DNA of 17,339 nt from Streptomyces sp. NBC_00513. Lineage in GTDB: Bacteria > Actinomycetota > Actinomycetes > Streptomycetales > Streptomycetaceae. Positions 95 to 17,210 of this stretch are shown one piece after another. The notes beneath the pieces are model-generated. The model was not told the origin of the DNA. It made no database searches and was given only the letters and a program-made list of their open reading frames with translations. Both the position numbers and the translations under genes were made by a program. The stretch covers positions 1-17,339 of the forward strand of contig NZ_CP107848.1 of NCBI RefSeq assembly GCF_041431415.1, written 5' to 3'. The stretch's first letter is position 1; each line of letters opens with the position of its first letter.

Positions 95-126
95 ACCCGC
101 CGTCACCAACAGCAGGAGCGACCGCC

Positions 127-864: not shown

Positions 865-887
865 ACCCAGACCGCTTCAACACCCTT

Positions 888-1242: not shown

Positions 1243-1674
1243 TCACCAGAGGCCACTACCCCCCTTCCGCCGGCCCTTGCCGACAGCCTCGGCACGAGCC
1301 GCCAACGCCCTCGCGAGCCCGGACGAGTCAGGGTCCACAGCCGGCGGGGCCGGCGGCGCGGGCGGGGCCAGCTCGAAGTCACCGCCCGCCGGCTCCTGGT
1401 GGTGGTCGACGTCCACCGACGTCCGCTCGATCGCCGTCGCGAGGAAGAGCGCCGCCTGCATCTCGCGGGGCGCCGGCACCGGCACCGGCGAGGCCGCCGG
1501 CGCGCGGTCCCGCTTCATCGGCAGGCCCAGGCGCTCAGCCTCGTACGCACGCTGCCGGTGCGACCGCCGGCAGTAGCGCCGCGGCGTACGGGTGCCGAGC
1601 TGACTCACCGGCTCACCACACCACCGACACCCCGGATCCGGACCCACCCGCCGCACCACCACGTCATCGCTCAT
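1243..1674 (-). CDS. Small zinc-knuckle protein, function unknown
   Basis: This 143-aa protein carries C16-x2-C19-x15-C35-x3-H39 and the run YCRRSHRQRAYEAERLG, resembling the short Cys-rich motif ending in YC-x3-C-RQRAY found in many actinobacterial plasmid proteins, here with His as the fourth ligand. Rep has a related motif at C75/C80/C94/C98. The C-terminal half is low complexity, with a Pro/Ala stretch around 102-113 and a basic tail (GKGRRKGG). A longer reading from 1950 is open, but the two operator palindromes lie in that extension and the composition changes, so I chose the ATG at 1674. There is little Shine-Dalgarno, so the message may be leaderless. A role in DNA binding or copy-number control is plausible but unproven. 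Confidence 0.65.
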   Translation of the reverse strand: MSDDVVVRRVGPDPGCRWCGEPVSQLGTRTPRRYCRRSHRQRAYEAERLGLPMKRDRAPAASPVPVPAPREMQAALFLATAIERTSVDVDHHQEPAGGDFELAPPAPPAPPAVDPDSSGLARALAARAEAVGKGRRKGGSGLW

Positions 1675-1684
1675 GCCTGCACCG

Positions 1685-1739
1685 TAGCCGTCACTGTGAC
1701 GGCTAGACCGGACCCACCTAGCCGTCACAGTGACGGCTA
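1685..1739. promoter_or_regulatory. Paired 21-bp palindromic operators upstream of the zinc-knuckle gene
   Basis: Two near-perfect palindromes with arms TAGCCGTCAC/GTGACGGCTA sit at 1685-1705 and 1719-1739 and differ only at the central base (T or A), so they are exact reverse complements of each other. They are 34 bp apart. On the minus strand TACGGT (1686-1681) just after the first could be a -10, so a bound dimer would cover the promoter of the 143-aa gene. The binding protein is unknown; candidates are the 143-aa protein or the GntR regulator. Confidence 0.65.
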
Positions 1740-1831
1740 GCCCCGCGTCGAGGACGAGCACCAGGCGCACGAGCCCGGCCGCCGTCGACCGGTACGTCAT
1801 CGAGGCCAGCCGTACGTCTACGCGATGACGT

Positions 1832-1864
1832 ACGTCGAGGAGCACCAGGCCGTCACCGACGACG
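1832..1864 (+). repeat. 33-bp direct repeat, left member
   Basis: Matches 2563-2595 at 32 of 33 positions (G in place of C at 1840). Both include AGCACCAGGCCGTCACCGAC. The two members bracket the iteron and palindrome block. A further core GAGCACCAGGC lies at 1756-1766. Confidence 0.8.
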
Positions 1865-2064
1865 TCGACCAGGAGCACGCGCAGCACCGGAATAGCGACC
1901 AGCCGCCGAACACCTCTGGCACTACGCCGATCCGGAGCCCGACCCAGCACCGCGGATCCCGCCCCACGGGACCACGCTCACTCGACCACCCAGAAGGGCA
2001 CACCTCTTGCTACCCGCCCCCGAAGACCACCCCACCCCCCCACCCACACATATAAGTCCGGCTA

Positions 2065-2091
2065 GTCACCGGGCCAGATCCGGCCGGTGAC
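2065..2091. repeat. Inverted repeat GTCACCGG(g)CC / GGCCGGTGAC
   Basis: Ten paired bases with one bulged G and a 6-base loop (agatcc). It carries the same TCACCGG/CCGGTGA heptamer that builds the 38-bp palindrome at 2238-2275, so the two may bind the same factor. Confidence 0.5.
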
Positions 2092-2122
2092 CAGCGCGGA
2101 TGCGCGGGGGTCGGACGTACCG

Positions 2123-2194
2123 CTTCCCCCCATGTTTCCCCCCATGTCTCCCCGGATGTTTCCCCCCATGTCTCCCCCCTTGTTTCCCCCCATG
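2123..2194. repeat. Six tandem 12-bp repeats (iteron-like array)
   Basis: Units of consensus TTTCCCCCCATG run without spacers at 2123, 2135, 2147, 2159, 2171 and 2183. Three are exact; the first begins CTT, the third is TCTCCCCGGATG and the fifth TCTCCCCCCTTG. The array gives purine-rich CATGGGGGGAAA on the minus strand. It could be a protein-binding array for replication, partition or transfer. The absence of spacers excludes a CRISPR. An open frame reading through it on the minus strand is a by-product of the repeats. Confidence 0.85.
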
Positions 2195-2237
2195 TGTTCA
2201 CGGGAGCACCCAGGTATCTGCCGATACGGATCATGAA

Positions 2238-2275
2238 ACCGGTGACTCACCGGTCCGGACCGGTGAGTCACCGGT
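2238..2275. repeat. Perfect 38-bp palindrome
   Basis: The segment is fully self-complementary about TCCGGA, each half containing CCGGTGACTCACCGG or its complement. It is built from repeated CCGGTGA/TCACCGG heptamers that continue to 2277. It can form a long hairpin in single-stranded plasmid DNA, or two or more operator sites. Confidence 0.85.
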
Positions 2276-2276
2276 G

Positions 2277-2298
2277 ACTCACCAACCGGCTGGTGAGT
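2277..2298. repeat. Inverted repeat ACTCACCA / TGGTGAGT
   Basis: Eight-bp perfect arms flank a 6-base loop (accggc), directly abutting the 38-bp palindrome and using a related half-site. Probably part of the same structured element. Confidence 0.6.
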
Positions 2299-2333
2299 GA
2301 GCGCGGAGAGGCCGGCTGTCAGGCCAGAACGGT

Positions 2334-2365
2334 GGAGCAAGATAGTGCGTACTGGGCCCAGTACG
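2334..2365 (-). other. Candidate double-strand origin element (CTTGCTCC plus 18-bp palindrome)
   Basis: An 18-bp perfect palindrome CGTACTGGGCCCAGTACG (2348-2365) is followed on the Rep coding strand by CACTATCTTGCTCC (2347-2334). The pattern CCAGTA-N8-CTTGCTCC recurs at 2673-2652 across the rep stop codon. A hairpin beside a short nick-like sequence is the usual layout of rolling-circle origins. The nick-site assignment is inference; I cannot confirm the motif for this Rep family. Confidence 0.35.
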
Positions 2366-2368
2366 GTG

Positions 2369-2460
2369 CGGCCGAGGACGGCCGGAGCATGATCAAACGG
2401 GGTGGATGGACAAAGGCAGTTCCCCTGTCTGGAGAACTGCGACCGAGCGGCAGACTGCCG
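2369..2460. other. Cluster of small stem-loops, possible single-strand origin
   Basis: Three hairpins follow closely: CGGCCG-agga-CGGCCG (2369-2384), GCAGTTC/GAACTGC with an 11-base loop (2416-2440) and CGGCAGACTGCCG (2448-2460). With the palindromes at 2238-2365 they make a highly folded single strand, as expected for an sso or a sti-like element of pIJ101-type plasmids. Confidence 0.35.
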
Positions 2461-2562
2461 TCATGAGCACCCCCCGCCGCGCGCTCGGCGCCGGCCCGAC
2501 GTCGAGCACCAGGCCGCCGGCCGCGATACCCGCACCGCGGCTTCTGCCGGCGGAACGAGCGG

Positions 2563-2595
2563 ACGTCGAGCAGCACCAGGCCGTCACCGACGACG
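2563..2595 (+). repeat. 33-bp direct repeat, right member
   Basis: Partner of 1832-1864 (32/33 identity). A further GAGCACCAGGC follows at 2595-2605, and another lies at 2504-2514. Confidence 0.8.
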
Positions 2596-2666
2596 AGCAC
2601 CAGGCCGTGAAGATGCCGGAGGGCCGGCGCCATCTCGGCACCGGCCCCGGCGGAGCAAGTTGGGCG

Positions 2667-4763
2667 CTACTGGACCGTTAGCGCGTGCCGGGCCGCACGG
2701 ATGTGGGCCAGCAGGTTGACGGCCTCGACCGGTGCCGCCAACGCCGACTTGGCGGGCTTGTACTTGGCCATCCACTCGGCAACCTGCTGTTCGGACCGCC
2801 GCTTCCGCGCCTTCGCGTTGACCCGCTCGTACAGGTCCGCCTGCACCCTGGCCAGCTGCTCGGCAGTCGCCACCCGGACGTGGTCGGCCCGGCCGCCGAG
2901 GTCGACGACGACGTCGGCCGCCGTGTCGTACGACTCGGTCTTGATGACGTCCTGCATGTGCAGTTCGGCGTCCCCGTCGACCACCTTGTCGTGGGCGTCA
3001 CGCGTGAGGATGACCCCGCCGGTCAACTCCTGGTTCTTGTCCTGCTCGAAGACGAACGCCTTGTTCGTCTCATCGGAGTCGTCTCCGGTGAGCTGGACGT
3101 GACCGCGCAGGCCGCGCGTCCACTCGATCGCCCGCCGGCCGGCCATGGCGCTCTCGTACTCCGCCCACCAGATCCGGCACTGCGCGGCGGTACCGTACCC
3201 CTCCGCCCGCGCAGGCTTGAGCCTCGCGACCTCCAGGTCGTGCAGCCGGTAGAGCATCTGGAACGGCGTCATGGACTGGCCCCGGTACGACTTGTTGTCG
3301 GCGCGGGTGGTCTCCATCGCGGCCCCGCTCGCAGCGTCCAGATCCGCGCGGACCGACGCCGCCGGCGCCTTGCCGTCCTGGACCTTGGTCAGGTACTCGA
3401 TCAGCGCTTCGTCGTCCGCCGACGTGATCAGCTTGACCATGACGCCGTGGCCCTTGCCCTCGCACTTGCAGTCGCGGGTGTAGCAGTCGGTCGAGGGCGT
3501 GAACTCCGGGTCTGCCTTGGCAAGAGCGCCGGTCCACAGCTCGCGGAGCCAGTCCTCCCACTCCTCCAGCGCGTCGCCCCCGGGCGTGAAGTAGCCGGCT
3601 ACCTTGCCCTTGGCCGGGGTCCCGTTGACCTTGCCGCCGAGGAACACGAGCCCGTTCGTGTGCGGGTGCCAGCCGTGCTCCAGCGACCGCGTCACCTCCG
3701 AGGCCCGGACCATGCCCGCGTACCCGATCCGGTGCCGGATGCCCTGCTCCGCCGCACGGACCGAGTGCCCGAACGACCCGTCCTTGCGCTCCCACCAGGA
3801 CACCGCCTCGGGCCGGCCGTAGAACCTCGGGTCGGTGAGCATCGTCTGGTAGGCGCCGGGTACCCGCCGCGGCTTCCCGTTCCGGTCCCGGACCGGGGCG
3901 CCGTCCGCATCGAGCATCGGCGCGCCCCACATCGCGGCCGCGAGCCGGGCCAGTTCGTGCGTCCGGTTGTGCCGGGCGGTGAGGACGACCACGGCGAGCG
4001 TGCCGCCAGCCGCCAGCCACCTCAGAGCGCCCGTCTTCAGTTCCTCGGTCCGGCCCCGGCGGATCGCACCGGAGCACTCCGGGCAGAACCAGATCCGCCC
4101 GCAGCGGACGAGCCCGATCGTCACGACGTAGCCGCGCGTCGAGCGGGCGTAGATCACTCCCGTCTCCGGGTCGAGCACCCGCCGGCCGCAGCCCCCGCAC
4201 GCGTCGATGCCCGAGACCCGGTTCAGAACCTTCCGGCCCTGGTAGCGCCGAATCGCGGCAGCCGCCGCTTTGTCCGCGCGGGTCTGTTCTGAGGGGCGCT
4301 GCGCCCCCTCAGACTCCCCCGCTCCACCCTCCGGACGTTCCCGCAGGTCAGAGGCGGTCTGGCCGCTCTTGGAAAACTCTGTCAACCCTTTACCTAGTTG
4401 TGCAGCTCCGCTGCCCTGTTCTTGCAGGTCAGAGGCCGTTTTCGGGGTGGATTTCGCGTCACCCTTGCGACAGGTGGGAGAGCAGTAGCTCTGACCCGCT
4501 CGCGAGCGGGTGAACTGGCGTCCGCACGCCTTCCGCCGGCAGCGGGCCCGCCGGGCGGGTACACGAACGGCCCCGCTCTGCGACGCGTCCGGGGACGGGG
4601 TCGCGGCCGGGGCCGAGGTTCCTGCATCATGGGAGAGCACTGCGTGAGCACCAATCCGGGGTCCGTGAGAAGAAGTCGGGTTCTGGTGTTCGCGGAATGA
4701 GGTCCGGCGTTGACGCGCCGGACCTCTCCGCGTTTCTGGAGTTATGTGGGTCGAGCCTGTCAC
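2667..4763 (-). CDS. rep: RepSA-type HUH rolling-circle replication initiator
   Basis: This 698-aa protein should nick the double-strand origin and start rolling-circle replication. The core has a Cys cluster (C189-x2-C192, C221, C227-x2-C230), a first strand motif AVVVLTARHN (257-266), the HUH metal-binding motif in GWHPHTN (H366, H368) and the likely catalytic tyrosine in EYLTK (Y457, with K460), in the order expected of pSAM2/pIJ101-type initiators. It exceeds the roughly 450-residue relatives because of an extra N-terminal 170 residues: a knuckle (C75-x4-C80-x13-C94-x3-C98) and a Ser/Gln/Glu-rich linker with TASDL twice. The start is uncertain: 4763 is a GTG with a weak ribosome site, a strong hairpin covers codons 11-25, and a second in-frame GTG lies at 4640. 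A terminator at 4832-4862 separates it from the upstream operon. Confidence 0.88.
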   Translation of the reverse strand: MTGSTHITPETRRGPARQRRTSFREHQNPTSSHGPRIGAHAVLSHDAGTSAPAATPSPDASQSGAVRVPARRARCRRKACGRQFTRSRAGQSYCSPTCRKGDAKSTPKTASDLQEQGSGAAQLGKGLTEFSKSGQTASDLRERPEGGAGESEGAQRPSEQTRADKAAAAAIRRYQGRKVLNRVSGIDACGGCGRRVLDPETGVIYARSTRGYVVTIGLVRCGRIWFCPECSGAIRRGRTEELKTGALRWLAAGGTLAVVVLTARHNRTHELARLAAAMWGAPMLDADGAPVRDRNGKPRRVPGAYQTMLTDPRFYGRPEAVSWWERKDGSFGHSVRAAEQGIRHRIGYAGMVRASEVTRSLEHGWHPHTNGLVFLGGKVNGTPAKGKVAGYFTPGGDALEEWEDWLRELWTGALAKADPEFTPSTDCYTRDCKCEGKGHGVMVKLITSADDEALIEYLTKVQDGKAPAASVRADLDAASGAAMETTRADNKSYRGQSMTPFQMLYRLHDLEVARLKPARAEGYGTAAQCRIWWAEYESAMAGRRAIEWTRGLRGHVQLTGDDSDETNKAFVFEQDKNQELTGGVILTRDAHDKVVDGDAELHMQDVIKTESYDTAADVVVDLGGRADHVRVATAEQLARVQADLYERVNAKARKRRSEQQVAEWMAKYKPAKSALAAPVEAVNLLAHIRAARHALTVQ
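4289..4312. repeat. Hairpin-forming segment inside rep
   Basis: CTGAGGGG and CCCC(C)TCAG pair around cgctgcg within the low-complexity linker of Rep (about residues 151-158). It may be only a product of the composition. Confidence 0.35.
4494..4511. repeat. Perfect 18-bp palindrome inside rep
   Basis: ACCCGCTCGCGAGCGGGT is fully self-complementary and encodes TRSRAG at residues 85-90, between the two Cys pairs of the N-terminal knuckle. It could be a binding site embedded in the coding sequence or chance in GC-rich DNA. Confidence 0.5.
4691..4732 (-). promoter_or_regulatory. Strong hairpin at the 5' end of rep
   Basis: Outer arms CGCGGA/TCCGCG and inner 11-bp arms GAGGTCCGGCG/CGCCGGACCTC pair around a 6-base loop, with a 2-base bulge. 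It falls on codons 11-25 of the longest reading of Rep. Possible roles are a translational block or attenuator in the rep leader, which would imply a downstream start, an operator, or an origin cruciform. Confidence 0.55.
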
Positions 4764-4911
4764 AAGTGGCGGCCCATCAGCCGCGAGGCGCCAATGTCGC
4801 CTTGGGGCTGGTGGGGTTTCGAGGGCCGAGGAACGCCCCGCCGACTAGGTCGGCGGGGCGTTGGTGTGCCCTGTCAGCTCTCGCGGTTGGTCGCGGTCAG
4901 CGGGTGGGTGC
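4764..4911. other. Intergenic region between the spread-like operon and rep
   Basis: 148 bp holding the operon terminator (4832-4862) and presumably the rep promoter in the roughly 70 bp between the terminator and the rep start. I could not identify convincing -35/-10 boxes. Confidence 0.5.
4832..4862 (-). terminator. Terminator of the membrane-protein operon
   Basis: Perfect 14-bp stem AACGCCCCGCCGAC with a 3-base loop, starting about 50 bp beyond the DUF2637 gene stop. Read leftward it ends in TT followed by CC, so only a short T stretch. It should isolate rep transcription from the upstream operon. Confidence 0.85.
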
Positions 4912-6039
4912 TCATGCGCTCATCTCCAGTTGTCCGGGCACCTGCTCCAGCTCGCGGTATCGGGCGGCGATCCAGCCGGTGGACCAGCCCGTGAGCGCTG
5001 CCGTGGCGCGCTGTGAGCGCCCTTCGCGGACCGCGCTCACGACCGCCGCGCGGGCGTCCCGCTCGCTCATCTTGCCGTCGGTCGGGGCCGGCTGAGGGGC
5101 CGGCTCGGCGACGTCGTGAGCGGGGGTGCTCACGGTGGCACTCACGGCCGGGCGCGGGGTGCTCACGGCAGCGCTCACAGGCGCCGGGACGGACCGGCGA
5201 GCGTCAGTCGCCTTGCGGTCCCGCTCGGTCTTCTGCGCGGCTTCACGGGCCGCGTGCTCACGGTCGAGACGCTGCTGCTCATCACGGCGCAACCGGTCGA
5301 CGCGCTCCCGCTCCTGCCGCTTCTCCTCAGCAGCCGCAAGGCGTGCGGCTTCCTCGCGAGCCGCGGCCCGCTCTTCCCGCTCACGTTCCATCTGCGCGGC
5401 GTGGTCCCGCTCTTCGCGAGCGAGCTGGGCAGCGTGCTCACGCTCGTGCGCACGGTCGGCCCGCTCTTGCTCACGGCGCCGCTCCTCCGCCTGCCGGTCG
5501 CGCTCACGCTCGTCTGCACGAGCCATCTCCCGCGCCTCTCGCTCCGCTCGTGAGCGCTCCTCCTCCTCCCGCCGCTCACGGGCCACCCGGTCTCGCTCCA
5601 CGGCGCGCTCACGCTGGATCCGAGCCACGGCCCGCGTGATCGCCCGCCGCCACATGAGCGCCGCCTCAGCGGTGACGATGAGCAGGATCGGGGCGACCGC
5701 GTGCACGCCCACGCCGACCCAGTCGCCCGAGAGCATCGAGTCCCCGACGTTGAGCGCGAGCGTCATGGCGCCGGTGAGCCAGCGCAGGACCACCGGCCAG
5801 GCGCCAGCCTCCCCGTCGAGCCGCGCGACGATGGCACCGACGCGAACGACGATGATCACGGCCGCGTCCACGACGAGCGGAAGAATCGGCGCGGTCCAGT
5901 CCCACTCGTCGGAGGTCACCCGCTGGACGAGCGGAGTCACGGTGAGGACCGAGTACAGGACCGCCCCGGCGACGATGACCCAGACGAGCCGCAGAGTCCG
6001 TTCGGCAGCGTCGATCTGCTGCTGGGTGCTCAACTTCAT
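4912..6039 (-). CDS. DUF2637 membrane protein with coiled coil and C-terminal HTH (Spd-like)
   Basis: This 375-aa protein has four predicted membrane segments (about 17-37, 50-72, 81-100 and 108-128) with the DUF2637 pattern (P-LVVDAAV-V, LTLALNVGDS, HAVAPILLIVTAE). A roughly 150-residue Glu/Arg/Ala-rich helix or coiled coil follows (132-282), then a Pro/Thr linker (283-322) and a C-terminal HTH-like segment (328-365, with RSQRATAALTGWSTGWIAARYREL). Streptomyces plasmids carry such proteins among their spread genes; SpdB2 is a membrane DNA-binding example, but I infer only a general resemblance. The start at 6039 has GAAGGG 6 nt upstream and overlaps the preceding 44-aa gene by 4 bp (ATGA). 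A longer in-frame reading reaching back to 6285 runs through the preceding genes and is rejected. It is the last gene of the operon. Confidence 0.8.
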   Translation of the reverse strand: MKLSTQQQIDAAERTLRLVWVIVAGAVLYSVLTVTPLVQRVTSDEWDWTAPILPLVVDAAVIIVVRVGAIVARLDGEAGAWPVVLRWLTGAMTLALNVGDSMLSGDWVGVGVHAVAPILLIVTAEAALMWRRAITRAVARIQRERAVERDRVARERREEEERSRAEREAREMARADERERDRQAEERRREQERADRAHEREHAAQLAREERDHAAQMEREREERAAAREEAARLAAAEEKRQERERVDRLRRDEQQRLDREHAAREAAQKTERDRKATDARRSVPAPVSAAVSTPRPAVSATVSTPAHDVAEPAPQPAPTDGKMSERDARAAVVSAVREGRSQRATAALTGWSTGWIAARYRELEQVPGQLEMSA

Positions 6040-6170
6040 CGCTTGCCCTTCGGATTGATGTCGGTTTTGGCCTTCGCGTGGCGCTGGAGTGCGGCGGCGG
6101 CCTTGCGGCTGGCGGCCTCGGCGCTCGCGGCAGCCGCGGCAGCCGCAGCGGCGTTCTCTTTCTGTCCCAT
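6036..6170 (-). CDS. 44-residue alanine-rich peptide, unknown function
   Basis: ATG at 6170, stop overlapping the DUF2637 gene start by 4 bp. The peptide begins MGQKENA, has nine consecutive Ala (7-15), and is otherwise a charged Ala/Lys/Arg helix ending NPKGKR. It starts 3 nt after the stop of the exported-protein gene, so the three are probably translationally coupled. There is no signal or membrane segment. A real small protein is supported mainly by the perfect packing between neighbours; alternatively it is a coupling ORF whose product matters little. Confidence 0.6.
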   Translation of the reverse strand: MGQKENAAAAAAAAASAEAASRKAAAALQRHAKAKTDINPKGKR

Positions 6171-6173
6171 GGC

Positions 6174-6542
6174 TCAGCCGCCGCAGGGGACGACGCCGTC
6201 GACGTCCGCAAACTGGTGGCGGACGTACCCGGCCATGGCGCCCCAGCCGCCGCTGTGCGTACCGGTGGTGATCTGGTGGACCCACACGAGCGCGGGGTCG
6301 GTCGGGTGGCAGCCCTGGATGCTGGCCTCGTCGGCGGTGCCCATGGCTCCGATGACGGTCCCGTCCTCGGCACGGAGCAGCAGACCGCGCGTACCGTCCT
6401 TCGGGGTCACGTCCACCGTGGCTCCCTCGTAGTGGACGTAGCCGGGGGACGGCGCCTTCTCCGGCAGGGCGACGGTGACGGCGGCGCCGGTCCCGAGCGC
6501 GGCGGCGAGTACGGTGGCAGCGGCCTTGGTTGCGAGGATCAT
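6174..6542 (-). CDS. Small exported protein, possible SH3-like fold
   Basis: A 122-aa protein with a typical secretion signal: Lys at 6, a hydrophobic Ala-rich stretch (7-26) and possible cleavage after VTVA or EKA. The mature part is about 95 residues with only two Cys (C78 and C120), suggesting a disulfide. Alternating short hydrophobic runs (GLLLRAEDGTVIGAM, ALVWVHQI, GYVRHQFADVDGVVPC) recall bacterial SH3-like domains of secreted actinobacterial proteins, which may contact peptidoglycan; this is a weak resemblance. GGAG 6 nt before the ATG supports the start. A 145-bp structured gap precedes it, so it may have its own promoter, and it leads into the 44-aa and DUF2637 genes. Confidence 0.65.
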   Translation of the reverse strand: MILATKAAATVLAAALGTGAAVTVALPEKAPSPGYVHYEGATVDVTPKDGTRGLLLRAEDGTVIGAMGTADEASIQGCHPTDPALVWVHQITTGTHSGGWGAMAGYVRHQFADVDGVVPCGG

Positions 6543-6571
6543 CGCGTTCTCCTACTGGGGTTGGCCGCCCT

Positions 6572-6603
6572 CACCCGGGATCTTGTTCAGGGAGCACCGG
6601 GTG
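6572..6603. repeat. Inverted repeat CACCCGG / CCGGGTG before the exported-protein gene
   Basis: Seven-bp arms with an 18-base loop, about 30 bp upstream of the ATG at 6542. It could form in the 5' leader of the downstream gene set or be an operator. Confidence 0.35.
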
Positions 6604-6620
6604 GGGGCGGGTCTACTGAC

Positions 6621-6636
6621 GGCCCCGATCGGGGCC
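6621..6636. repeat. Perfect 16-bp palindrome in the operon gap
   Basis: GGCCCCGATCGGGGCC is fully self-complementary, 50 bp beyond the stop of the 317-aa gene. It can act as an intra-operon terminator hairpin or an operator. Confidence 0.5.
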
Positions 6637-6648
6637 AGCTCCGAGGAG

Positions 6649-6700
6649 CGGTAAACGGGTAAGCGGTAAGCCGGTGACCTGCGGGTTTACCCGCTTACCG
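6649..6700. promoter_or_regulatory. GGTAARCSG repeat cluster forming an imperfect stem
   Basis: Three overlapping forward copies (GGTAAACGG 6650, GGTAAGCGG 6658, GGTAAGCCG 6665) face two inverted ones (GGTAAACCC 6692-6684, GGTAAGCGG 6699-6691). The outer 16-base arms pair with one mismatch and one wobble around a 20-base loop. The right arm overlaps the last codons of the 317-aa gene. Could be a partial terminator, a processing site or an array bound by a plasmid protein. Confidence 0.55.
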
Positions 6701-7640
6701 ATCGGGTCCCGAAGTCGGGGGAGTGGGGGACCGGAGCCGTCTGGGTCAGGTCCGGCACCAGGTGGACCGGGAGGCGCGGCATGTGTCCCAGGGCCTGCGC
6801 GAGCTGGTCGTAGGCGACACCGATCGCCTTGGCGCCGGAGACGCTGACGACCTTTGTCGGGACACCGACGTCGCGCAGCTTCGCGGGGAACGTCGCCGAG
6901 GTGAGGCCGAGGAAGTCGCCTCGCTGGTGCAGGCCGTGCAGGAGATCGACGGCATGGACACCGTTGTGCCCCGACTGCTGCGCGGTCGCGACGGCCTGCT
7001 CGACGTACGTCAGGAGCTGCTGCTTCCACTTCCCCGTATCGACCGGCTCCGGCTCCGGCGCCGCAGGTTCCAGGACGAGCAAGGCCGTGTCCGCGAGGAG
7101 TTCGGCGGGTACCGGACGGACCGTCCGGCCGAAGGACCGGTCACCGCGCACACAGCAGGCCGTCACCGCTCCGGCCGTCGAGAGCAGGAACACGACACCG
7201 TCGAGCAGCCAGGAGCCGGCCACCACTCCCCCGACGGGGACGGCGAGCAGCGAGCAGCGCGCCACCGCGATCCGGACCCGGCGGTGACGGATCTGCCCCG
7301 GGTCGACGTCACGAATCTCGAAGTCGCCCAGTGCGTCGAGCGCGGCATCGTGGCGCCGGGCCTCGCGCTCCGCCTGGGCGAGGTCGGCCTGCGCCGCCGG
7401 CACGAGCCCGCCGTCTTCGGCCGCGATCCGACGCAGCTTCGTCGCCCGCCGGTGCGCACGCTTCGCCTCGCGGGCATGCTCCTCGACGGCCTCACTGTGC
7501 TTGGCGGCGCGCGCTTTGACGATCCGCCGGTGGAGCTCCTCTTCCGACACCGTGTGTCCGCCCGCCCAGTGCGCGACGGCGACACCGATATGGCCGGCCC
7601 CAGCGGCAGTCCGGGCAATCAGGGGTGCAGGCCGGTTCAT
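6687..7640 (-). CDS. Membrane protein with N-terminal helical domain and possible C-terminal winged helix
   Basis: A 317-aa protein not assigned to a named family. Residues 31-105 form a charged helical, coiled-coil-like segment (VSEEELHRRI through RHDAALDAL). Two adjacent membrane segments lie at about 122-143 and 145-164, then a Pro/Glu linker (190-200). The C-terminal 204-290 region (WKQQLLTYVEQAV, HAVDLLHGL, FPAKLRDVGVP, GVAYDQLAQALG) looks like a winged helix of the kind seen at the C-terminus of actinobacterial plasmid transfer proteins. There is no Walker A motif, so it is not a TraB/FtsK motor. The ATG at 7640 overlaps the upstream stop by 4 bp (ATGA), with GGGAGG upstream. A longer in-frame reading back to 8096 overlaps the 174-aa gene and is rejected. 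Confidence 0.65.
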   Translation of the reverse strand: MNRPAPLIARTAAGAGHIGVAVAHWAGGHTVSEEELHRRIVKARAAKHSEAVEEHAREAKRAHRRATKLRRIAAEDGGLVPAAQADLAQAEREARRHDAALDALGDFEIRDVDPGQIRHRRVRIAVARCSLLAVPVGGVVAGSWLLDGVVFLLSTAGAVTACCVRGDRSFGRTVRPVPAELLADTALLVLEPAAPEPEPVDTGKWKQQLLTYVEQAVATAQQSGHNGVHAVDLLHGLHQRGDFLGLTSATFPAKLRDVGVPTKVVSVSGAKAIGVAYDQLAQALGHMPRLPVHLVPDLTQTAPVPHSPDFGTRSVSG

Positions 7641-8161
7641 CCGATCAGCACCTCCCCCGCCCAGGACACGAGTGGGACCAGGACCATGGACGCCCAGCCG
7701 CCGACCGCGACCGTGATGCCCCAGGTAGCGCCGGTCACCGCGCCCGAGAGGGCGAGGGCGCGTTCGCCCCACCCCTTGGCGAAGTAGACGAACAGACCGA
7801 GGCCCACCACGAGAATCAGGGCGATCCAGGACCCGGAGTAGGTCAGAACCTCCCCTGTGGACAGGGGGACCGCGCCCGCCCCGGCCTGGCCGATCGCCGC
7901 GTCCCCGACCGTCCGGCCCATCGCGTTGCCGGTACCGGTGAAGCCCGCAGAGATCCGGCCCAAGAGCCCGGCCGTGACGGCGGAGGCCAGAACCATCGTG
8001 AGGAACGAGCCGGACCACGGCAGCCAGATCCGGCGCTTCTTGAGCGCCTTGAGCTTGCGGCCCTGCGAGTAGAAAACCGACATCGCAGTGACGCACAACA
8101 GGAAGAACCCGAAGGCCGATCCCGCCCTCGTCACGACGTGGGTGAAGGTGATCAGGTCCAT
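7637..8161 (-). CDS. Polytopic membrane protein, 174 aa
   Basis: Not a family I recognise. Four or five membrane segments are visible: about 5-30, 50-70, 108-128, 135-153 and 155-173. A strongly basic cytoplasmic loop (RKLKALKKRR, 35-44) lies between the first two, and a Gly/Ala-rich loop (71-100) before the third. Size and topology fit small Streptomyces Spd proteins or a conjugation-like channel subunit, but neither is shown. The start overlaps the preceding stop by one base (TGATG), and the stop overlaps the next start by four, implying translational coupling and stoichiometric synthesis with both neighbours. A longer reading from 8380 would run inside the upstream gene and is rejected. 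Confidence 0.7.
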   Translation of the reverse strand: MDLITFTHVVTRAGSAFGFFLLCVTAMSVFYSQGRKLKALKKRRIWLPWSGSFLTMVLASAVTAGLLGRISAGFTGTGNAMGRTVGDAAIGQAGAGAVPLSTGEVLTYSGSWIALILVVGLGLFVYFAKGWGERALALSGAVTGATWGITVAVGGWASMVLVPLVSWAGEVLIG

Positions 8162-8532
8162 CAGGCGCCCACGATCCAGGCCGCGATCAGGCTGCGGGTC
8201 GGCTCGGCGATCAGCGTCCCGCCGATGGCGGCGACGAGGAGCGCGGCGCACGCCCACCGGCGGACGCGTCCGCCGGTCGCCATGCCGATCGCGCAGACCA
8301 TGGACGTGATGAACGCGGTGGAGAACGCGGCGTCCACCGACACCGCCTCGGTCACCGGAACCGCCACCCGGTCGGCCCACACCAGGGCCGGGACGGTCGC
8401 GAGGCCGATCACCGTGAGAGTGCGGACCGGCCGCGCCGCCTTGATCGCGGCCCGGACGCGATCCCAGTCCACCGCGTGCGCGTTGGTCGGGTCCAGCTCC
8501 GGAATGTGGTCGAAGTTCTCCGGCAGAGTCAT
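8161..8532 (-). CDS. Small membrane protein, first structural gene of the operon
   Basis: A 123-aa protein with a soluble acidic N-terminus (1-36), then hydrophobic segments at about 38-54, 66-86 and 92-110, with a possible re-entrant end at 113-123; a basic GGRVRR turn separates the second and third. No family recognised. I chose the ATG at 8532, with GGGGGG 7 nt upstream, over an in-frame TTG at 8547 that lacks a ribosome site. It begins one base after the stop of a possible 19-codon leader ORF. With the next two genes it forms a tightly overlapped trio of membrane proteins expected to be made together. Confidence 0.7.
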   Translation of the reverse strand: MTLPENFDHIPELDPTNAHAVDWDRVRAAIKAARPVRTLTVIGLATVPALVWADRVAVPVTEAVSVDAAFSTAFITSMVCAIGMATGGRVRRWACAALLVAAIGGTLIAEPTRSLIAAWIVGA

Positions 8533-8533
8533 A

Positions 8534-8593
8534 TCAAAACCCCCCAATACGGGAGGTGCGGAGCCGGAGCTCCGAGGGGCTAGCGTGGGACAC
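8534..8593 (-). CDS. Possible 19-residue leader peptide
   Basis: A GTG at 8593 preceded by AAAGG (8606-8602) at 8-nt spacing opens a 19-codon frame (MSHASPSELRLRTSRIGGF) whose TGA lies one base before the ATG of the 123-aa gene. The location in the operon leader, after a strong hairpin, fits a coupling ORF. Another in-frame GTG at 8602 would add three residues. It is too short for codon statistics, so this is tentative. Confidence 0.35.
   Translation of the reverse strand: MSHASPSELRLRTSRIGGF
8559..8574. repeat. Small hairpin CGGAGC-CGGA-GCTCCG in the operon leader
   Basis: Six-bp perfect arms with a 4-base loop, within the putative leader ORF and about 27 bp before the ATG at 8532. It might modulate access to the GGGGGG ribosome site when the leader is not translated. 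Confidence 0.35.
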
Positions 8594-8627
8594 GGCGGTC
8601 ACCTTTCACGAGGCGTGCTGCTACGGA

Positions 8628-8665
8628 GCCCCGCCCGCGATCTGTGGAAGGTGATCGGGCGGGGC
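8628..8665 (-). promoter_or_regulatory. Strong leader hairpin upstream of the operon
   Basis: GCCCCGCCCG(c)GATC pairs with GATCGGGCGGGGC (13 bp, one bulged base) around a 10-base loop. It lies between the candidate leftward promoter (8719-8747) and the leader ORF. AAGGTGA (8648-8654), spanning loop and right-arm bases, is complementary to TCACCTT at 8599-8605, which on the RNA carries the leader's ribosome site, so an alternative or pseudoknotted fold is possible. It may be an attenuator or a terminator between the divergent units. Confidence 0.5.
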
Positions 8666-8703
8666 GCTGTGTGACGTACGGACCAGCTCCAAGCGAGTAC
8701 GAC

Positions 8704-8721
8704 GGTACTACACTGTGTACC
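8704..8721. promoter_or_regulatory. Putative GntR operator, copy 2 (both divergent genes present)
   Basis: Same element as 27-44. Here the leftward operon (from 8593) and the rightward gntR (8804) flank it intact, so this copy shows the real regulatory arrangement. Confidence 0.45.
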
Positions 8722-8744
8722 TCAGTGCCACACCCTTGTAGCAT
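8716..8744 (+). promoter_or_regulatory. Candidate gntR promoter, copy 2
   Basis: TGTACC (8716-8721), 17-bp spacer, TAGCAT (8739-8744). The -35 shares bases with the operator at 8704-8721. Confidence 0.4.
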
Positions 8745-8747
8745 CAA
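8719..8747 (-). promoter_or_regulatory. Candidate promoter of the leftward membrane-protein operon
   Basis: TTGATG (8747-8742), 17-bp spacer, TGAGGT (8724-8719) on the minus strand. Its -10 overlaps the operator palindrome at 8704-8721 and it faces the gntR promoter, so one bound GntR dimer could silence both. The leader would be about 180 nt long and contain the hairpin at 8628-8665. Confidence 0.45.
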
Positions 8748-8757
8748 GTCCCCAGGG

Positions 8758-8771
8758 CAAGTTCGAACTTG
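8758..8771. promoter_or_regulatory. Perfect 14-bp palindrome in the gntR leader, copy 2
   Basis: CAAGTTCGAACTTG; equivalent to 81-94. Confidence 0.4.
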
Positions 8772-8803
8772 ACCCGCCGTCACCAACAGCAGGAGCGACC
8801 GCC

Positions 8804-9541
8804 ATGGACCCCACCGAAATCGGCTACCTAGACATCACCGACCACTACCGCCGGCTGATCGCCGACCGGCAGATCACCGACGGCGCGCGGCTGCCCTCGG
8901 TGCGCGACATCGCCACCGAGTGGGGCGTGGCCACCAAGACCGCGCAGCGGGCCCTGAAGGCCCTCTCGATGGAGGGCTACGCCTCTGCGGTGCGTGGACT
9001 CGGCTACGCGGCGACCTTCCGCCCCCACGACTTCGCGACCCTGCGCGTACGCGTGAACGGCTCCCGCGAACGCGGGGAGGCGTATGCCCCCGGCGACGAA
9101 CAGCGCATCCTGTCCGCGAAGCTGACGCCCGCCGGCGGCGCGGTCTCCGAAGTCCTCGGGATCGAGCCGACCGACCTCGCGGTGCTCCGAACCGGGAGCG
9201 TGACCCGGGCGGGTCGGGTCATCCGGATGTCACACTCCTGGTTCCCCGCCGAACTCGCCGATCTCGTCCCGGAACTGCTGACCACCGAGTCCACCCCGCC
9301 CGGCAACGTCGCCCGGATCGAGGCAGCGACTGGCCGCAGGACCGAACTCACCGCCGACCACTTCACCGTGGACCTCACCGCCCTCCAGCACGTCCAGGGT
9401 TTCGGGGTCGCCCAGGGGACACCGGTCCTCGTACGCACCACGGTCCGCCACGACGGGCAGGGCGTCATCGAGTACGGAACCACCTGGTTCCCTCGCAACG
9501 TGGTCCTCGCCGTCGAGTACAACGAGGTGGCCGGCAACTGA
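8804..9541 (+). CDS. GntR/HutC-family transcriptional regulator (copy 2)
   Basis: Identical 245-aa product to the gene at 127-864: GntR winged helix at 7-72 and UTRA-like domain at 95-240. In this copy the complete intergenic region with the divergent operon (8533-8803, 271 bp) is present, so the regulatory inferences rest on this context. The ribosome site AGGAG is at 8791-8795. If the molecule is a true dimer, gene dosage is two; if it is an assembly read-through, this is the same gene seen twice. Confidence 0.85.
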   Translation: MDPTEIGYLDITDHYRRLIADRQITDGARLPSVRDIATEWGVATKTAQRALKALSMEGYASAVRGLGYAATFRPHDFATLRVRVNGSRERGEAYAPGDEQRILSAKLTPAGGAVSEVLGIEPTDLAVLRTGSVTRAGRVIRMSHSWFPAELADLVPELLTTESTPPGNVARIEAATGRRTELTADHFTVDLTALQHVQGFGVAQGTPVLVRTTVRHDGQGVIEYGTTWFPRNVVLAVEYNEVAGN

Positions 9542-9564
9542 ACCCAGACCGCTTCAACACCCTT

Positions 9565-9593
9565 CAGCCCCCGCCGGAGTTCGGCGGGGGCTG
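9565..9593 (+). terminator. Terminator of gntR, copy 2
   Basis: Same 12-bp stem and 5-base loop as 888-916. Confidence 0.75.
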
Positions 9594-9919
9594 CGTCGTA
9601 TCGCTCGGGTCGACTGTGGGGCGCCTACCGTCAAATGGCATGCGCGGCCGGCTGGGACGGCGGCTGCGGGCGCGCTCGGATCAGCAAAAGCGGCCGGCGG
9701 CGGGAGGGGTGGGGTCGGGGGCCGTCCGTCACCTCTCAGCGACCCCGGACTCTGGCCGGGCGCCGTACCCCCGCCGTCACGGATGCGGGCGCGTGAGGCG
9801 CACGACCGCCCCGTCTCGGGCTGGCGGGGAGCTATCAGCTGCCGCGATGCGGATCCGCCGTCAATCTCGCTCCGCTCGTGACAGGTCCGTCGTGGGCGCG
9901 GGTTCGGGTGCGGGCCGTC
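9594..9919. other. Intergenic region, copy 2, no gene seen
   Basis: Equivalent of 917-1242; only the small palindrome and the 17-base shared segment noted there. Confidence 0.5.
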
Positions 9920-10351
9920 TCACCAGAGGCCACTACCCCCCTTCCGCCGGCCCTTGCCGACAGCCTCGGCACGAGCCGCCAACGCCCTCGCGAGCCCGGA
10001 CGAGTCAGGGTCCACAGCCGGCGGGGCCGGCGGCGCGGGCGGGGCCAGCTCGAAGTCACCGCCCGCCGGCTCCTGGTGGTGGTCGACGTCCACCGACGTC
10101 CGCTCGATCGCCGTCGCGAGGAAGAGCGCCGCCTGCATCTCGCGGGGCGCCGGCACCGGCACCGGCGAGGCCGCCGGCGCGCGGTCCCGCTTCATCGGCA
10201 GGCCCAGGCGCTCAGCCTCGTACGCACGCTGCCGGTGCGACCGCCGGCAGTAGCGCCGCGGCGTACGGGTGCCGAGCTGACTCACCGGCTCACCACACCA
10301 CCGACACCCCGGATCCGGACCCACCCGCCGCACCACCACGTCATCGCTCAT
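9920..10351 (-). CDS. Small zinc-knuckle protein, function unknown (copy 2)
   Basis: Identical 143-aa product to 1243-1674, with C16, C19, C35 and H39 as likely metal ligands and the YCRRSHRQRAYE signature. Start at the ATG at 10351, directly downstream of the paired operators at 10362-10416. Convergent with gntR copy 2. Confidence 0.65.
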   Translation of the reverse strand: MSDDVVVRRVGPDPGCRWCGEPVSQLGTRTPRRYCRRSHRQRAYEAERLGLPMKRDRAPAASPVPVPAPREMQAALFLATAIERTSVDVDHHQEPAGGDFELAPPAPPAPPAVDPDSSGLARALAARAEAVGKGRRKGGSGLW

Positions 10352-10361
10352 GCCTGCACCG

Positions 10362-10416
10362 TAGCCGTCACTGTGACGGCTAGACCGGACCCACCTAGCC
10401 GTCACAGTGACGGCTA
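10362..10416. promoter_or_regulatory. Paired 21-bp palindromic operators, copy 2
   Basis: Palindromes at 10362-10382 and 10396-10416, identical to 1685-1739. Confidence 0.65.
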
Positions 10417-10799
10417 GCCCCGCGTCGAGGACGAGCACCAGGCGCACGAGCCCGGCCGCCGTCGACCGGTACGTCATCGAGGCCAGCCGTACGTCTACGC
10501 GATGACGTACGTCGAGGAGCACCAGGCCGTCACCGACGACGTCGACCAGGAGCACGCGCAGCACCGGAATAGCGACCAGCCGCCGAACACCTCTGGCACT
10601 ACGCCGATCCGGAGCCCGACCCAGCACCGCGGATCCCGCCCCACGGGACCACGCTCACTCGACCACCCAGAAGGGCACACCTCTTGCTACCCGCCCCCGA
10701 AGACCACCCCACCCCCCCACCCACACATATAAGTCCGGCTAGTCACCGGGCCAGATCCGGCCGGTGACCAGCGCGGATGCGCGGGGGTCGGACGTACCG

Positions 10800-10871
10800 C
10801 TTCCCCCCATGTTTCCCCCCATGTCTCCCCGGATGTTTCCCCCCATGTCTCCCCCCTTGTTTCCCCCCATG
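10800..10871. repeat. Six tandem 12-bp repeats, copy 2
   Basis: Same TTTCCCCCCATG-type array as 2123-2194, with the same variant units, so no unit was gained or lost between copies. Confidence 0.85.
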
Positions 10872-10914
10872 TGTTCACGGGAGCACCCAGGTATCTGCCG
10901 ATACGGATCATGAA

Positions 10915-10952
10915 ACCGGTGACTCACCGGTCCGGACCGGTGAGTCACCGGT
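10915..10952. repeat. Perfect 38-bp palindrome, copy 2
   Basis: Equivalent of 2238-2275, with the ACTCACCA/TGGTGAGT repeat following at 10954-10975. Confidence 0.85.
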
Positions 10953-11010
10953 GACTCACCAACCGGCTGGTGAGTGAGCGCGGAGAGGCCGGCTGTCAGG
11001 CCAGAACGGT

Positions 11011-11042
11011 GGAGCAAGATAGTGCGTACTGGGCCCAGTACG
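11011..11042 (-). other. Candidate double-strand origin element, copy 2
   Basis: Palindrome CGTACTGGGCCCAGTACG at 11025-11042 followed leftward by CACTATCTTGCTCC; second CTTGCTCC site at 11336-11329. See 2334-2365. Confidence 0.35.
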
Positions 11043-11343
11043 GTGCGGCCGAGGACGGCCGGAGCATGATCAAACGGGGTGGATGGACAAAGGCAGTTCC
11101 CCTGTCTGGAGAACTGCGACCGAGCGGCAGACTGCCGTCATGAGCACCCCCCGCCGCGCGCTCGGCGCCGGCCCGACGTCGAGCACCAGGCCGCCGGCCG
11201 CGATACCCGCACCGCGGCTTCTGCCGGCGGAACGAGCGGACGTCGAGCAGCACCAGGCCGTCACCGACGACGAGCACCAGGCCGTGAAGATGCCGGAGGG
11301 CCGGCGCCATCTCGGCACCGGCCCCGGCGGAGCAAGTTGGGCG

Positions 11344-13440
11344 CTACTGGACCGTTAGCGCGTGCCGGGCCGCACGGATGTGGGCCAGCAGGTTGACGGC
11401 CTCGACCGGTGCCGCCAACGCCGACTTGGCGGGCTTGTACTTGGCCATCCACTCGGCAACCTGCTGTTCGGACCGCCGCTTCCGCGCCTTCGCGTTGACC
11501 CGCTCGTACAGGTCCGCCTGCACCCTGGCCAGCTGCTCGGCAGTCGCCACCCGGACGTGGTCGGCCCGGCCGCCGAGGTCGACGACGACGTCGGCCGCCG
11601 TGTCGTACGACTCGGTCTTGATGACGTCCTGCATGTGCAGTTCGGCGTCCCCGTCGACCACCTTGTCGTGGGCGTCACGCGTGAGGATGACCCCGCCGGT
11701 CAACTCCTGGTTCTTGTCCTGCTCGAAGACGAACGCCTTGTTCGTCTCATCGGAGTCGTCTCCGGTGAGCTGGACGTGACCGCGCAGGCCGCGCGTCCAC
11801 TCGATCGCCCGCCGGCCGGCCATGGCGCTCTCGTACTCCGCCCACCAGATCCGGCACTGCGCGGCGGTACCGTACCCCTCCGCCCGCGCAGGCTTGAGCC
11901 TCGCGACCTCCAGGTCGTGCAGCCGGTAGAGCATCTGGAACGGCGTCATGGACTGGCCCCGGTACGACTTGTTGTCGGCGCGGGTGGTCTCCATCGCGGC
12001 CCCGCTCGCAGCGTCCAGATCCGCGCGGACCGACGCCGCCGGCGCCTTGCCGTCCTGGACCTTGGTCAGGTACTCGATCAGCGCTTCGTCGTCCGCCGAC
12101 GTGATCAGCTTGACCATGACGCCGTGGCCCTTGCCCTCGCACTTGCAGTCGCGGGTGTAGCAGTCGGTCGAGGGCGTGAACTCCGGGTCTGCCTTGGCAA
12201 GAGCGCCGGTCCACAGCTCGCGGAGCCAGTCCTCCCACTCCTCCAGCGCGTCGCCCCCGGGCGTGAAGTAGCCGGCTACCTTGCCCTTGGCCGGGGTCCC
12301 GTTGACCTTGCCGCCGAGGAACACGAGCCCGTTCGTGTGCGGGTGCCAGCCGTGCTCCAGCGACCGCGTCACCTCCGAGGCCCGGACCATGCCCGCGTAC
12401 CCGATCCGGTGCCGGATGCCCTGCTCCGCCGCACGGACCGAGTGCCCGAACGACCCGTCCTTGCGCTCCCACCAGGACACCGCCTCGGGCCGGCCGTAGA
12501 ACCTCGGGTCGGTGAGCATCGTCTGGTAGGCGCCGGGTACCCGCCGCGGCTTCCCGTTCCGGTCCCGGACCGGGGCGCCGTCCGCATCGAGCATCGGCGC
12601 GCCCCACATCGCGGCCGCGAGCCGGGCCAGTTCGTGCGTCCGGTTGTGCCGGGCGGTGAGGACGACCACGGCGAGCGTGCCGCCAGCCGCCAGCCACCTC
12701 AGAGCGCCCGTCTTCAGTTCCTCGGTCCGGCCCCGGCGGATCGCACCGGAGCACTCCGGGCAGAACCAGATCCGCCCGCAGCGGACGAGCCCGATCGTCA
12801 CGACGTAGCCGCGCGTCGAGCGGGCGTAGATCACTCCCGTCTCCGGGTCGAGCACCCGCCGGCCGCAGCCCCCGCACGCGTCGATGCCCGAGACCCGGTT
12901 CAGAACCTTCCGGCCCTGGTAGCGCCGAATCGCGGCAGCCGCCGCTTTGTCCGCGCGGGTCTGTTCTGAGGGGCGCTGCGCCCCCTCAGACTCCCCCGCT
13001 CCACCCTCCGGACGTTCCCGCAGGTCAGAGGCGGTCTGGCCGCTCTTGGAAAACTCTGTCAACCCTTTACCTAGTTGTGCAGCTCCGCTGCCCTGTTCTT
13101 GCAGGTCAGAGGCCGTTTTCGGGGTGGATTTCGCGTCACCCTTGCGACAGGTGGGAGAGCAGTAGCTCTGACCCGCTCGCGAGCGGGTGAACTGGCGTCC
13201 GCACGCCTTCCGCCGGCAGCGGGCCCGCCGGGCGGGTACACGAACGGCCCCGCTCTGCGACGCGTCCGGGGACGGGGTCGCGGCCGGGGCCGAGGTTCCT
13301 GCATCATGGGAGAGCACTGCGTGAGCACCAATCCGGGGTCCGTGAGAAGAAGTCGGGTTCTGGTGTTCGCGGAATGAGGTCCGGCGTTGACGCGCCGGAC
13401 CTCTCCGCGTTTCTGGAGTTATGTGGGTCGAGCCTGTCAC
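11344..13440 (-). CDS. rep: RepSA-type HUH rolling-circle replication initiator (copy 2)
   Basis: Identical 698-aa product to 2667-4763: N-terminal knuckle at C75-C98, Cys cluster at 189-230, HPH metal motif at 366-368 and probable nicking tyrosine Y457. The same start uncertainty applies: GTG at 13440, or the in-frame GTG at 13317 downstream of the hairpin at 13368-13409. A stable dimer would carry two functional initiators as well as two origins. Confidence 0.88.
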   Translation of the reverse strand: MTGSTHITPETRRGPARQRRTSFREHQNPTSSHGPRIGAHAVLSHDAGTSAPAATPSPDASQSGAVRVPARRARCRRKACGRQFTRSRAGQSYCSPTCRKGDAKSTPKTASDLQEQGSGAAQLGKGLTEFSKSGQTASDLRERPEGGAGESEGAQRPSEQTRADKAAAAAIRRYQGRKVLNRVSGIDACGGCGRRVLDPETGVIYARSTRGYVVTIGLVRCGRIWFCPECSGAIRRGRTEELKTGALRWLAAGGTLAVVVLTARHNRTHELARLAAAMWGAPMLDADGAPVRDRNGKPRRVPGAYQTMLTDPRFYGRPEAVSWWERKDGSFGHSVRAAEQGIRHRIGYAGMVRASEVTRSLEHGWHPHTNGLVFLGGKVNGTPAKGKVAGYFTPGGDALEEWEDWLRELWTGALAKADPEFTPSTDCYTRDCKCEGKGHGVMVKLITSADDEALIEYLTKVQDGKAPAASVRADLDAASGAAMETTRADNKSYRGQSMTPFQMLYRLHDLEVARLKPARAEGYGTAAQCRIWWAEYESAMAGRRAIEWTRGLRGHVQLTGDDSDETNKAFVFEQDKNQELTGGVILTRDAHDKVVDGDAELHMQDVIKTESYDTAADVVVDLGGRADHVRVATAEQLARVQADLYERVNAKARKRRSEQQVAEWMAKYKPAKSALAAPVEAVNLLAHIRAARHALTVQ
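13368..13409 (-). promoter_or_regulatory. Strong hairpin at the 5' end of rep, copy 2
   Basis: Equivalent of 4691-4732. Confidence 0.55.
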
Positions 13441-17209: not shown

Positions 17210-17210
17210 A

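Follow-up and report, generated by a model that had tools for sequence, protein, structure and literature searches.

A conserved motor-free variant of the Streptomyces transfer and spread operon on an 8,677-bp plasmid and in other mobile elements

The window analysed here comprises positions 1–17,339 of contig C4 (NZ_CP107848.1) in the 4-contig, 8.62-Mb genome of Streptomyces sp. NBC_00513, and the six-gene unit on its minus strand is a version of the Streptomyces transfer/spread operon that is conserved without the motor and is found in several kinds of mobile element. The 317-amino-acid (317-aa) protein in the slot of the FtsK/TraB-type translocase keeps the N-terminal membrane part of the translocase but lacks the motor, and a separate domain forms its C-terminal end. 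TraB is described as the only protein essential to transfer, with the Spd proteins as helpers that are poorly understood (PMC4170104). An operon with the pump removed and the anchor and its partners kept offers a direct way to ask what Spd-type membrane proteins do alone. A literature search of titles and abstract openings, with most subscription journals outside its reach, returned nothing on a motor-free protein in the TraB slot.

The window is an exact tandem double with a period of 8677, and all 8662 comparable positions are identical. What underlies it is a circular plasmid of 8,677 bp, perhaps doubled in assembly or present as a dimer; a public protein-set entry of the same 317-aa protein has a longest contig of 17,354 bases, which is 2 × 8677. 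Because the plasmid is read twice, the six-gene unit recurs at +8677. The six open reading frames (ORFs) of the preliminary description of this DNA lie where it had placed them, on the minus strand of the first copy, and encode in gene order products of 123, 174, 317, 122, 44 and 375 aa.

RESULTS

A motor-free protein in the TraB/FtsK slot

In the S. virginiae NBC_00168 and NBC_01298 plasmids the operon runs GntR, 121–123 aa, 174 aa, a 690–693-aa FtsK-type protein, 121–132 aa, 55 aa and DUF2637, and on the linear NBC_00105 plasmid it runs GntR, a 165-aa ORF, 174 aa, a 725-aa FtsK-type protein, two small genes and DUF2637. The 317-aa gene of the window sits between the 174- and 122-aa genes, that is, in the motor position of these motor-bearing operons. 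Residues ~10–197 of its product, for which the structure model and the hydrophobic segments point to long N-terminal helices and a transmembrane hairpin, are 51–54% identical to the N-terminal 195 residues of the three FtsK-type relatives. Over the last 120 residues there is no alignment with the close motor forms (hhalign probability for the C-terminus 0.3%), but this part is 35% identical to the C-terminal end of a 306-aa protein encoded on the linear plasmid of NBC_00637. With one group of distant motor forms the C-terminus gave an in-register but marginal hhalign match (13.5%, single-comparison P 0.002; 4.5% for another group), and on this marginal result a motor may have been deleted in the distant past. 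The C-terminal domain alone gave no match at E 1 in tblastn against plasmids, which we take as a limitation of the search, since five records had matched the full-length query in this domain at 1e-6 to 1e-8. On a linear megaplasmid (L012, 4116–6324), a 427-aa membrane protein and a 306-aa protein are encoded downstream of a DUF2637 gene, and the 306-aa protein ends in the C-terminal domain of the window protein, possibly as another motor-free arrangement.

The C-terminal part had been called winged helix-turn-helix-like in the preliminary description. The structure model does predict a winged-helix domain at residues ~204–285 (blocks 201–290, pLDDT 87–98; domain alone, pTM 0.63), but no profile match stands behind it; structure comparison of this domain by itself was winged-helix-turn-helix-like but weak, and the full 317-aa model gave mainly long-helix matches in Foldseek and VIA, which were uninformative. 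Searches of Pfam, NCBIfam and PHROGs returned nothing informative for the 123-, 174-, 317- and 122-aa proteins, two of which had weak PHROG matches of unknown function.

Search for a motor in the window and in related loci

Neither PF01580 nor any of five motor profiles matched a product of the unit, which bears out the claim that it is without a TraB/FtsK motor and answers the profile check for a translocase that had been proposed with it. With PF01580 at E ≤ 0.001 the host genome gave 9 matches, all on contig C1 and none on the window's C4, and as a control all five related motor-bearing plasmids were matched (slot proteins or TraBs, E 5e-9 to 6e-5). Three of these matches, those of pJV1, S. 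zaomyceticus and the NBC_00105 slot protein, scored below the curated 24-bit cut-off. The TraB-type proteins of NC_001759 and NZ_CP108527 score ~18 bits, under this cut-off with E below 1e-5, and hence screens using the 24-bit cut-off can miss Streptomyces TraB.

The five motor profiles were built from 18 motor proteins in five groups and matched none of 2457 ORFs from the window, nine motor-free loci (see below) and the fetched flanks of the elements in genomes G396 (K. cheerisanensis), G530 and G523. They are narrow: profiles 2 and 3 recognise each other's members (8/8), profiles 1, 4 and 5 recognise only their own, and none of them sees the EccC-type protein found by PF01580 at the L103 end. 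The first motor profiles had been checked solely on the proteins that built them; the main one matched 4 of 12 long N-domain relatives (L017/L057, L040, L043 and L050), and neither matched the FtsK-type ORFs of the host in L108 and L109. All eight long relatives missed by this main profile have a Walker A motif (seven by pattern, L041 by eye). PF01580 over whole genomes is a wider motor test than these home-made profiles, and the stretches read around the motor-free loci extended no more than 10 kb from the gene and were shorter where a contig ended. In the genomes that carry these loci the PF01580 matches fell on other contigs or well away from the elements. The nearest PF01580 match to the motor-free locus lay 392 kb away in CB01881, more than 1 Mb in K. 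cheerisanensis, ~145 kb in G523 and, in G530, ~9.6 kb outside the att repeat; the 38-kb viral record had no match, and the S. katrae locus was tested with the profiles only. It is unlikely that an element has a diverged motor elsewhere.

The motor-free family and its loci

A protein search returned 54 other homologues of 314–348 aa, 50–71% identical over 90–98% of the 317-aa query, with named sources in Streptomyces and Kitasatospora. Because this search admits only 0.55–1.75 times the query length, long motor forms could not appear in it, and the word motor-free rests here on size and alignment. All 55 motor-free rows of an N-domain tree fell on one side of a single branch, apart from its 15 long rows, with a weak SH-aLRT value of 35 for one motor-free origin and a midpoint root only.

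The 123–174–317 order on one strand was kept in all nine further loci that were read, namely those of S. katrae, Kitasatospora MBT63, CB01881, K. phosalacinea and K. cheerisanensis, a viral contig, two loci of G523 and one of G530. Across them the 123-aa protein is 28–51% and the 174-aa protein 52–66% identical to that of the window, and a Pfam DUF2637 protein is linked to the cassette in three (S. katrae and both G523 loci). Two of the loci are att-flanked prophages and one is a viral contig. The G530 element spans ~39.6 kb between 46-bp repeats, one of them within tRNA-Lys, and among 30 proteins scanned there were single matches to a portal, a prohead protease, a minor tail protein, an amidase and an integrase, with a capsid match under the cut-off. 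The K. cheerisanensis prophage spans ~39.1 kb between copies of a 33-bp repeat, one within tRNA-Lys, encodes an SPP1-type portal, capsid, terminase small subunit, tail tube and integrase among 24 proteins scanned, and is present in IMG/VR as a viral sequence. A 48-bp repeat (L100:6033 and L101:1842) is longer than the tRNA-Lys repeat of this prophage. On the 38-kb viral contig, genes for both terminase subunits (small and large) and the portal lie ~3–7 kb downstream of the cassette, and both here and in the G530 prophage the cassette and the portal gene share a strand, with the cassette upstream.

The two related G523 elements are integrated, measure ~14.6 and 15.2 kb between 36- and 41-bp direct repeats, and carry genes for an integrase, a DUF3987 protein, GntR and DUF2637. 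Their proteins are mostly ~90–99% alike, with the DUF3987 proteins at 36% and the integrases at 50%, a pattern of module swapping. The Kitasatospora MBT63 locus lies on a 10.3-kb contig with a Rep-like protein 30% identical to the window Rep, and no end overlap showing circularity was found on this contig. A TrwC relaxase is encoded on the contig of the K. phosalacinea locus, and the CB01881 locus has an integrase-like protein beside tRNA-Tyr (by eye, 24–25% identity, no Pfam match).

Among 392 Streptomyces genomes the 174-aa gene turned up in three, of which one is the host and another gave a weak partial match. In the genus of the MBT63 locus, a group that includes CB01881, titled Streptomyces, 12 of 70 genomes have the gene. 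Six of these 12 have the motor-free slot gene, six have a 679–706-aa slot protein (seven proteins, with motor evidence by profile, pattern or eye), and none has both. Eight PLSDB records carry the 174-aa gene, and in the three that were opened the next gene is a motor. By the preliminary description, homologous clusters that always contain traB would have refuted the claim; the neighbourhood comparison shows both motor-bearing and motor-free clusters. The 317-aa protein had matches in 2 of 199 host relatives (one being the host) and in 10 of 392 genomes of the genus, full-length only in the host, and thus few Streptomyces genomes have a member of the family. A search of an annotated phage collection found no relative of either the 317- or the 174-aa protein.

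Exchange of the slot gene within a shared operon

Compared with S. virginiae, the window proteins are 86% (123 aa), 84.5% (174 aa) and 78.5% (122 aa) identical and the slot N-terminus 54.6%, whereas compared with the motor-free S. katrae locus the values are 50% for the 123-aa protein, 66% for the 174-aa protein and 73.6% for the slot N-terminus (the 122-aa protein lying outside this comparison). DNA similarity to the S. virginiae NBC_00168 plasmid covers 6174–6622 and 7267–8545 and skips 6623–7266, and the near DNA search match ends at 7623, just within the slot gene. Because the flanks are closest to a motor-bearing operon and the slot gene to motor-free relatives, the sequences indicate that the slot gene was exchanged, in either direction, inside a common operon. 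A mere deletion of the motor is no adequate account of this operon, in which the slot gene belongs with the motor-free proteins. Nonsynonymous and synonymous divergence (dN and dS) of the slot gene between the window and S. katrae were 0.294 and 0.947 (ratio ~0.31). Against S. virginiae the dN/dS inputs were 0.115/0.69 for the 174-aa, 0.074/0.396 for the 123-aa and 0.133/0.463 for the 122-aa gene (ratios 0.17–0.29), and the two G523 slot copies gave 0.026/0.045 on 30 changes only.

Other features of the plasmid

Features of the plasmid are collected in Table 1. A KorA-like regulator had been named in the preliminary description, and Pfam GntR and UTRA matches agree with this; it is 72% identical to the GntR protein of the Kitasatospora MBT63 contig, and its divergence from the operon is the layout of pIJ101. 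The same description took the 375-aa product for a DUF2637 protein (PF10935), an assignment that fell, since no Pfam family matched at E ≤ 1 and the protein is instead 62% identical over 364 columns to a 371-aa ORF of pJV1 in the SpdB2 position and 63% identical to an S. zaomyceticus plasmid protein. The name SpdB2 in pJV1 follows from gene order, the 371-aa ORF standing after traB and one more ORF. No Pfam integrase match was found among the 9 main window proteins.

Arrays of about six 12-bp units, similar in form to the TTCCCCCCATGT array of the window, also occur in the Kitasatospora MBT63 contig (L028, 9956–10032), in K. phosalacinea (L030, 1054–1128) and in the NBC_01298 plasmid (L010, 13764–13842), and a longer array in L011; a common cis-site was sought among them and not found, the TTCCCCCCATGT array differing in sequence from the others. 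One GGTGACTCACC of the type in the 2238–2283 array is also present in pJV1 at 2944. The repeat GACCCGGA, which we take to be the 8-bp TRS of the pSVH1 clt locus, has 3 scattered occurrences per plasmid copy, and a different repeat could serve as clt. We named the 143-aa protein SpdA because of its match to the pJV1 ORF and the adjoining sps-type palindromes, and it is 74% identical to an ORF of pADI95-16d. An sps variant with a central base is described for pSVH1 and pEN2701, and the candidate single-strand origin has the position beside spdA that is described for pIJ101 (PMC4170104). The pJV1-like Rep and SpdB2-position protein, SpdA with its palindromes and the divergent GntR gene together indicate, at the level of sequence, a rolling-circle plasmid of the pJV1/pIJ101 type with other genes in place of traA–traB.

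Table 1. Features of the window, with positions in the first plasmid copy unless the row is the second copy
Feature	Position	Strand	Remarks
Complete copy of the 8,677-bp circular plasmid	1..8677		Period 8677
KorA-like GntR/UTRA repressor, 245 aa, divergent from operon	127..864	+	PF00392 3e-9, PF07702 1.1e-6
Non-coding block, candidate single-strand origin	910..1240		76–83% identity matches on 11 Streptomyces plasmid records
SpdA-like protein, 143 aa	1243..1674	-	37%, E 1.9e-14 to pJV1 ORF containing sps palindromes
Two sps-like palindromes CGTCAC(T/A)GTGACG	1689..1735		Central-base variant, beside SpdA-like gene
Six 12-bp direct repeats TTCCCCCCATGT	2124..2195		Candidate cis-site
Array of 11-bp units with palindromes, ACCGGTGACTCACCGGT type	2238..2283		Seen in the sequence
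Rep, 698 aa, pJV1-type replication initiator	2667..4763	-	60.7% over 638 aa to pJV1 replication protein
SpdB2-like membrane protein, 375 aa	4912..6039	-	3 hydrophobic segments, long charged helix-like part
Ala-rich small ORF, 44 aa	6036..6170	-	Weak match to 55-aa ORF in same place of S. virginiae NBC_00168 plasmid (54% over 26 aa, E 0.002)
122-aa protein with N-terminal hydrophobic signal-like segment 7–27	6174..6542	-	78–83% to the two closest FtsK-bearing operons
Motor-free protein in FtsK/TraB slot, 317 aa	6687..7640	-	Anchor and predicted winged helix
Polytopic membrane protein, 174 aa, cassette gene 2	7637..8161	-	3 hydrophobic segments
Membrane protein, 123 aa, cassette gene 1	8161..8532	-	2 hydrophobic segments
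Second plasmid copy, 15 bp short of a full turn	8678..17339		Assembly doubling or true dimer

DISCUSSION

A possible docking module and its alternatives

The preliminary description had left three options, a module mobilised with the aid of a helper, a remnant after loss of traB, and an unrecognised envelope system, and the last, taken more broadly as an unrecognised module, is the best supported of them. We infer, with a probability of about 0.45, that the unit is a membrane-tethered module for DNA docking or spread without a translocase of its own. The 317-aa protein would insert in the membrane beside the 123- and 174-aa proteins, and here also beside the SpdB2-like protein, and its predicted winged helix would bind a site on its own replicon. 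The bound replicon DNA would then be docked at the membrane, probably at the cross-walls, and docking may serve maintenance of the element or its passage between compartments of the mycelium, in which case passage would use the force of the host or of a helper instead of an own pump. KorA would repress the operon. SpdB2 of pSVH1 is described as a membrane protein that binds DNA, oligomerises and interacts with TraB (PMC4170104), and as it both binds DNA and contacts TraB, it offers a precedent for a complex of Spd protein and anchor. A wider idea, which we regard as distinctly unlikely, is that a conjugation-derived, motor-independent membrane machine, common to the plasmids, integrated elements and tailed temperate phages of Streptomyces and Kitasatospora, docks their DNA and passes it across the septal cross-walls of the mycelium; if it were true, phages would spread in hyphae before or without lysis, by a module taken from plasmid spread genes.

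The motor-free protein could instead act in exclusion or inhibition of transfer, by mixing into the rings of related TraB proteins or occupying their membrane partners and so blocking competitors. In favour of this, its anchor is 51–54% identical to the motor form and its 174-aa partner up to 84% identical to that of a motor-bearing plasmid, and the carriers, which are plasmids, integrated elements and prophages, would all gain from exclusion; the presence in phages would fit a role in superinfection exclusion, and the even split of the 12 genomes of the MBT63 genus between motor-free and motor-bearing slots, without overlap, would fit as well. However, a pure poison needs neither the 123- nor the 174-aa gene, and the motor-free protein keeps its own copies of both in 9/9 loci, and in the G530 prophage and on the viral contig the cassette points the same way as the structural genes, an uncommon arrangement for an exclusion module; on balance we consider this explanation rather unlikely. 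Mobilisation by a helper seems doubtful in a similar way. Here the proteins of the plasmid would dock it and the TraB of another element would pump, for example that of a pSAM2-like actinomycete integrative and conjugative element (AICE) of the same chromosome, and the host does have such an element at ~2.692–2.700 Mb of C1, where a 482-aa FtsK-type ORF lies near genes for RepSA, DUF2637, an integrase and tRNA-Val, so that a helper is conceivable. One published study itself asks whether the TraB of another element is hijacked, but, according to the same study, the specificity of TraB was shown for pJV1, pSVH1 and pIJ101 (PMC9513070). Moreover, no host protein shares the anchor domain, the 317-aa protein matching only the two copies of the window in the host genome, and tailed prophages need no such helper.

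A function at the membrane or envelope apart from DNA movement, such as a membrane-anchored transcription regulator or a stress sensor of mobile elements, is improbable in our judgement. A membrane anchor joined to a winged helix is the build of membrane-bound regulators too, and relatives of the C-terminal domain occur terminally in other proteins whose likeness to the 317-aa protein is confined to that domain, but the linkage to the 123- and 174-aa partners of the transfer operon in 9/9 loci, and to a Pfam DUF2637 protein in three, argues against such a function. It is very improbable that the unit is what was left of a transfer operon once traB had been lost. The flanks and a motor-bearing operon do have a recent common origin, but the gene in the slot is intact and belongs to a diverse family with 54 further members, its dN is well below its dS, and the same arrangement recurs in nine other loci, in none of which a linked motor was detected.

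Comparison with known systems

The TraB/FtsK-type operons of the S. virginiae NBC_00168 (NZ_CP108151), NBC_01298 (NZ_CP108418) and linear NBC_00105 (NZ_CP108214) plasmids resemble that of the window in the order GntR, small protein, 174 aa, slot and small genes, and their 174-aa proteins are 74–84% identical to that of the window. Their slot protein, in contrast, is 690–725 aa long, has an FtsK motor (matched by PF01580 at E 5e-9 to 6e-5) and ends in another C-terminus; the NBC_00168 and NBC_01298 plasmids also carry a relaxase gene, whereas the window has neither motor nor relaxase. The G523 elements are like AICEs in their integrase, DUF3987, GntR and DUF2637 genes and direct repeats of 36–41 bp, and unlike them in that PF01580 has no match inside the repeats. 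Published AICE screens, as described, require an FtsK gene (PMC3218068, PMC9513070), and one of them excluded fragments with two or fewer components (PMC3218068), so that screens requiring an FtsK/TraB gene would set such elements aside. The AICE set of integrase, Rep and FtsK together is incomplete in both cases, the window having no FtsK or integrase match and the G523 elements an integrase and a DUF3987 protein without FtsK.

Among small plasmids, the 7-kb TraB-less rolling-circle plasmid pADI95-16d (NZ_CP033585) has a related Rep (76% DNA identity over 17% of the query), an SpdA 74% identical to that of the window and a DUF2637 gene, and is without a PF01580 match, like the window in lacking a motor. 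It differs in being without the 123–174–317 cassette, and its other gene is sigma-factor-like by eye. The likeness to pJV1 extends over Rep (61%), the SpdB2-position protein (62%), SpdA with sps palindromes and the divergent GntR repressor, and pJV1/pIJ101-type plasmids are likewise circular, with sizes of 8.8–11.1 kb; in contrast to them, the plasmid of the window has no traA or traB and carries the genes for the 123-, 174-, 317-, 122- and 44-aa proteins in their place.

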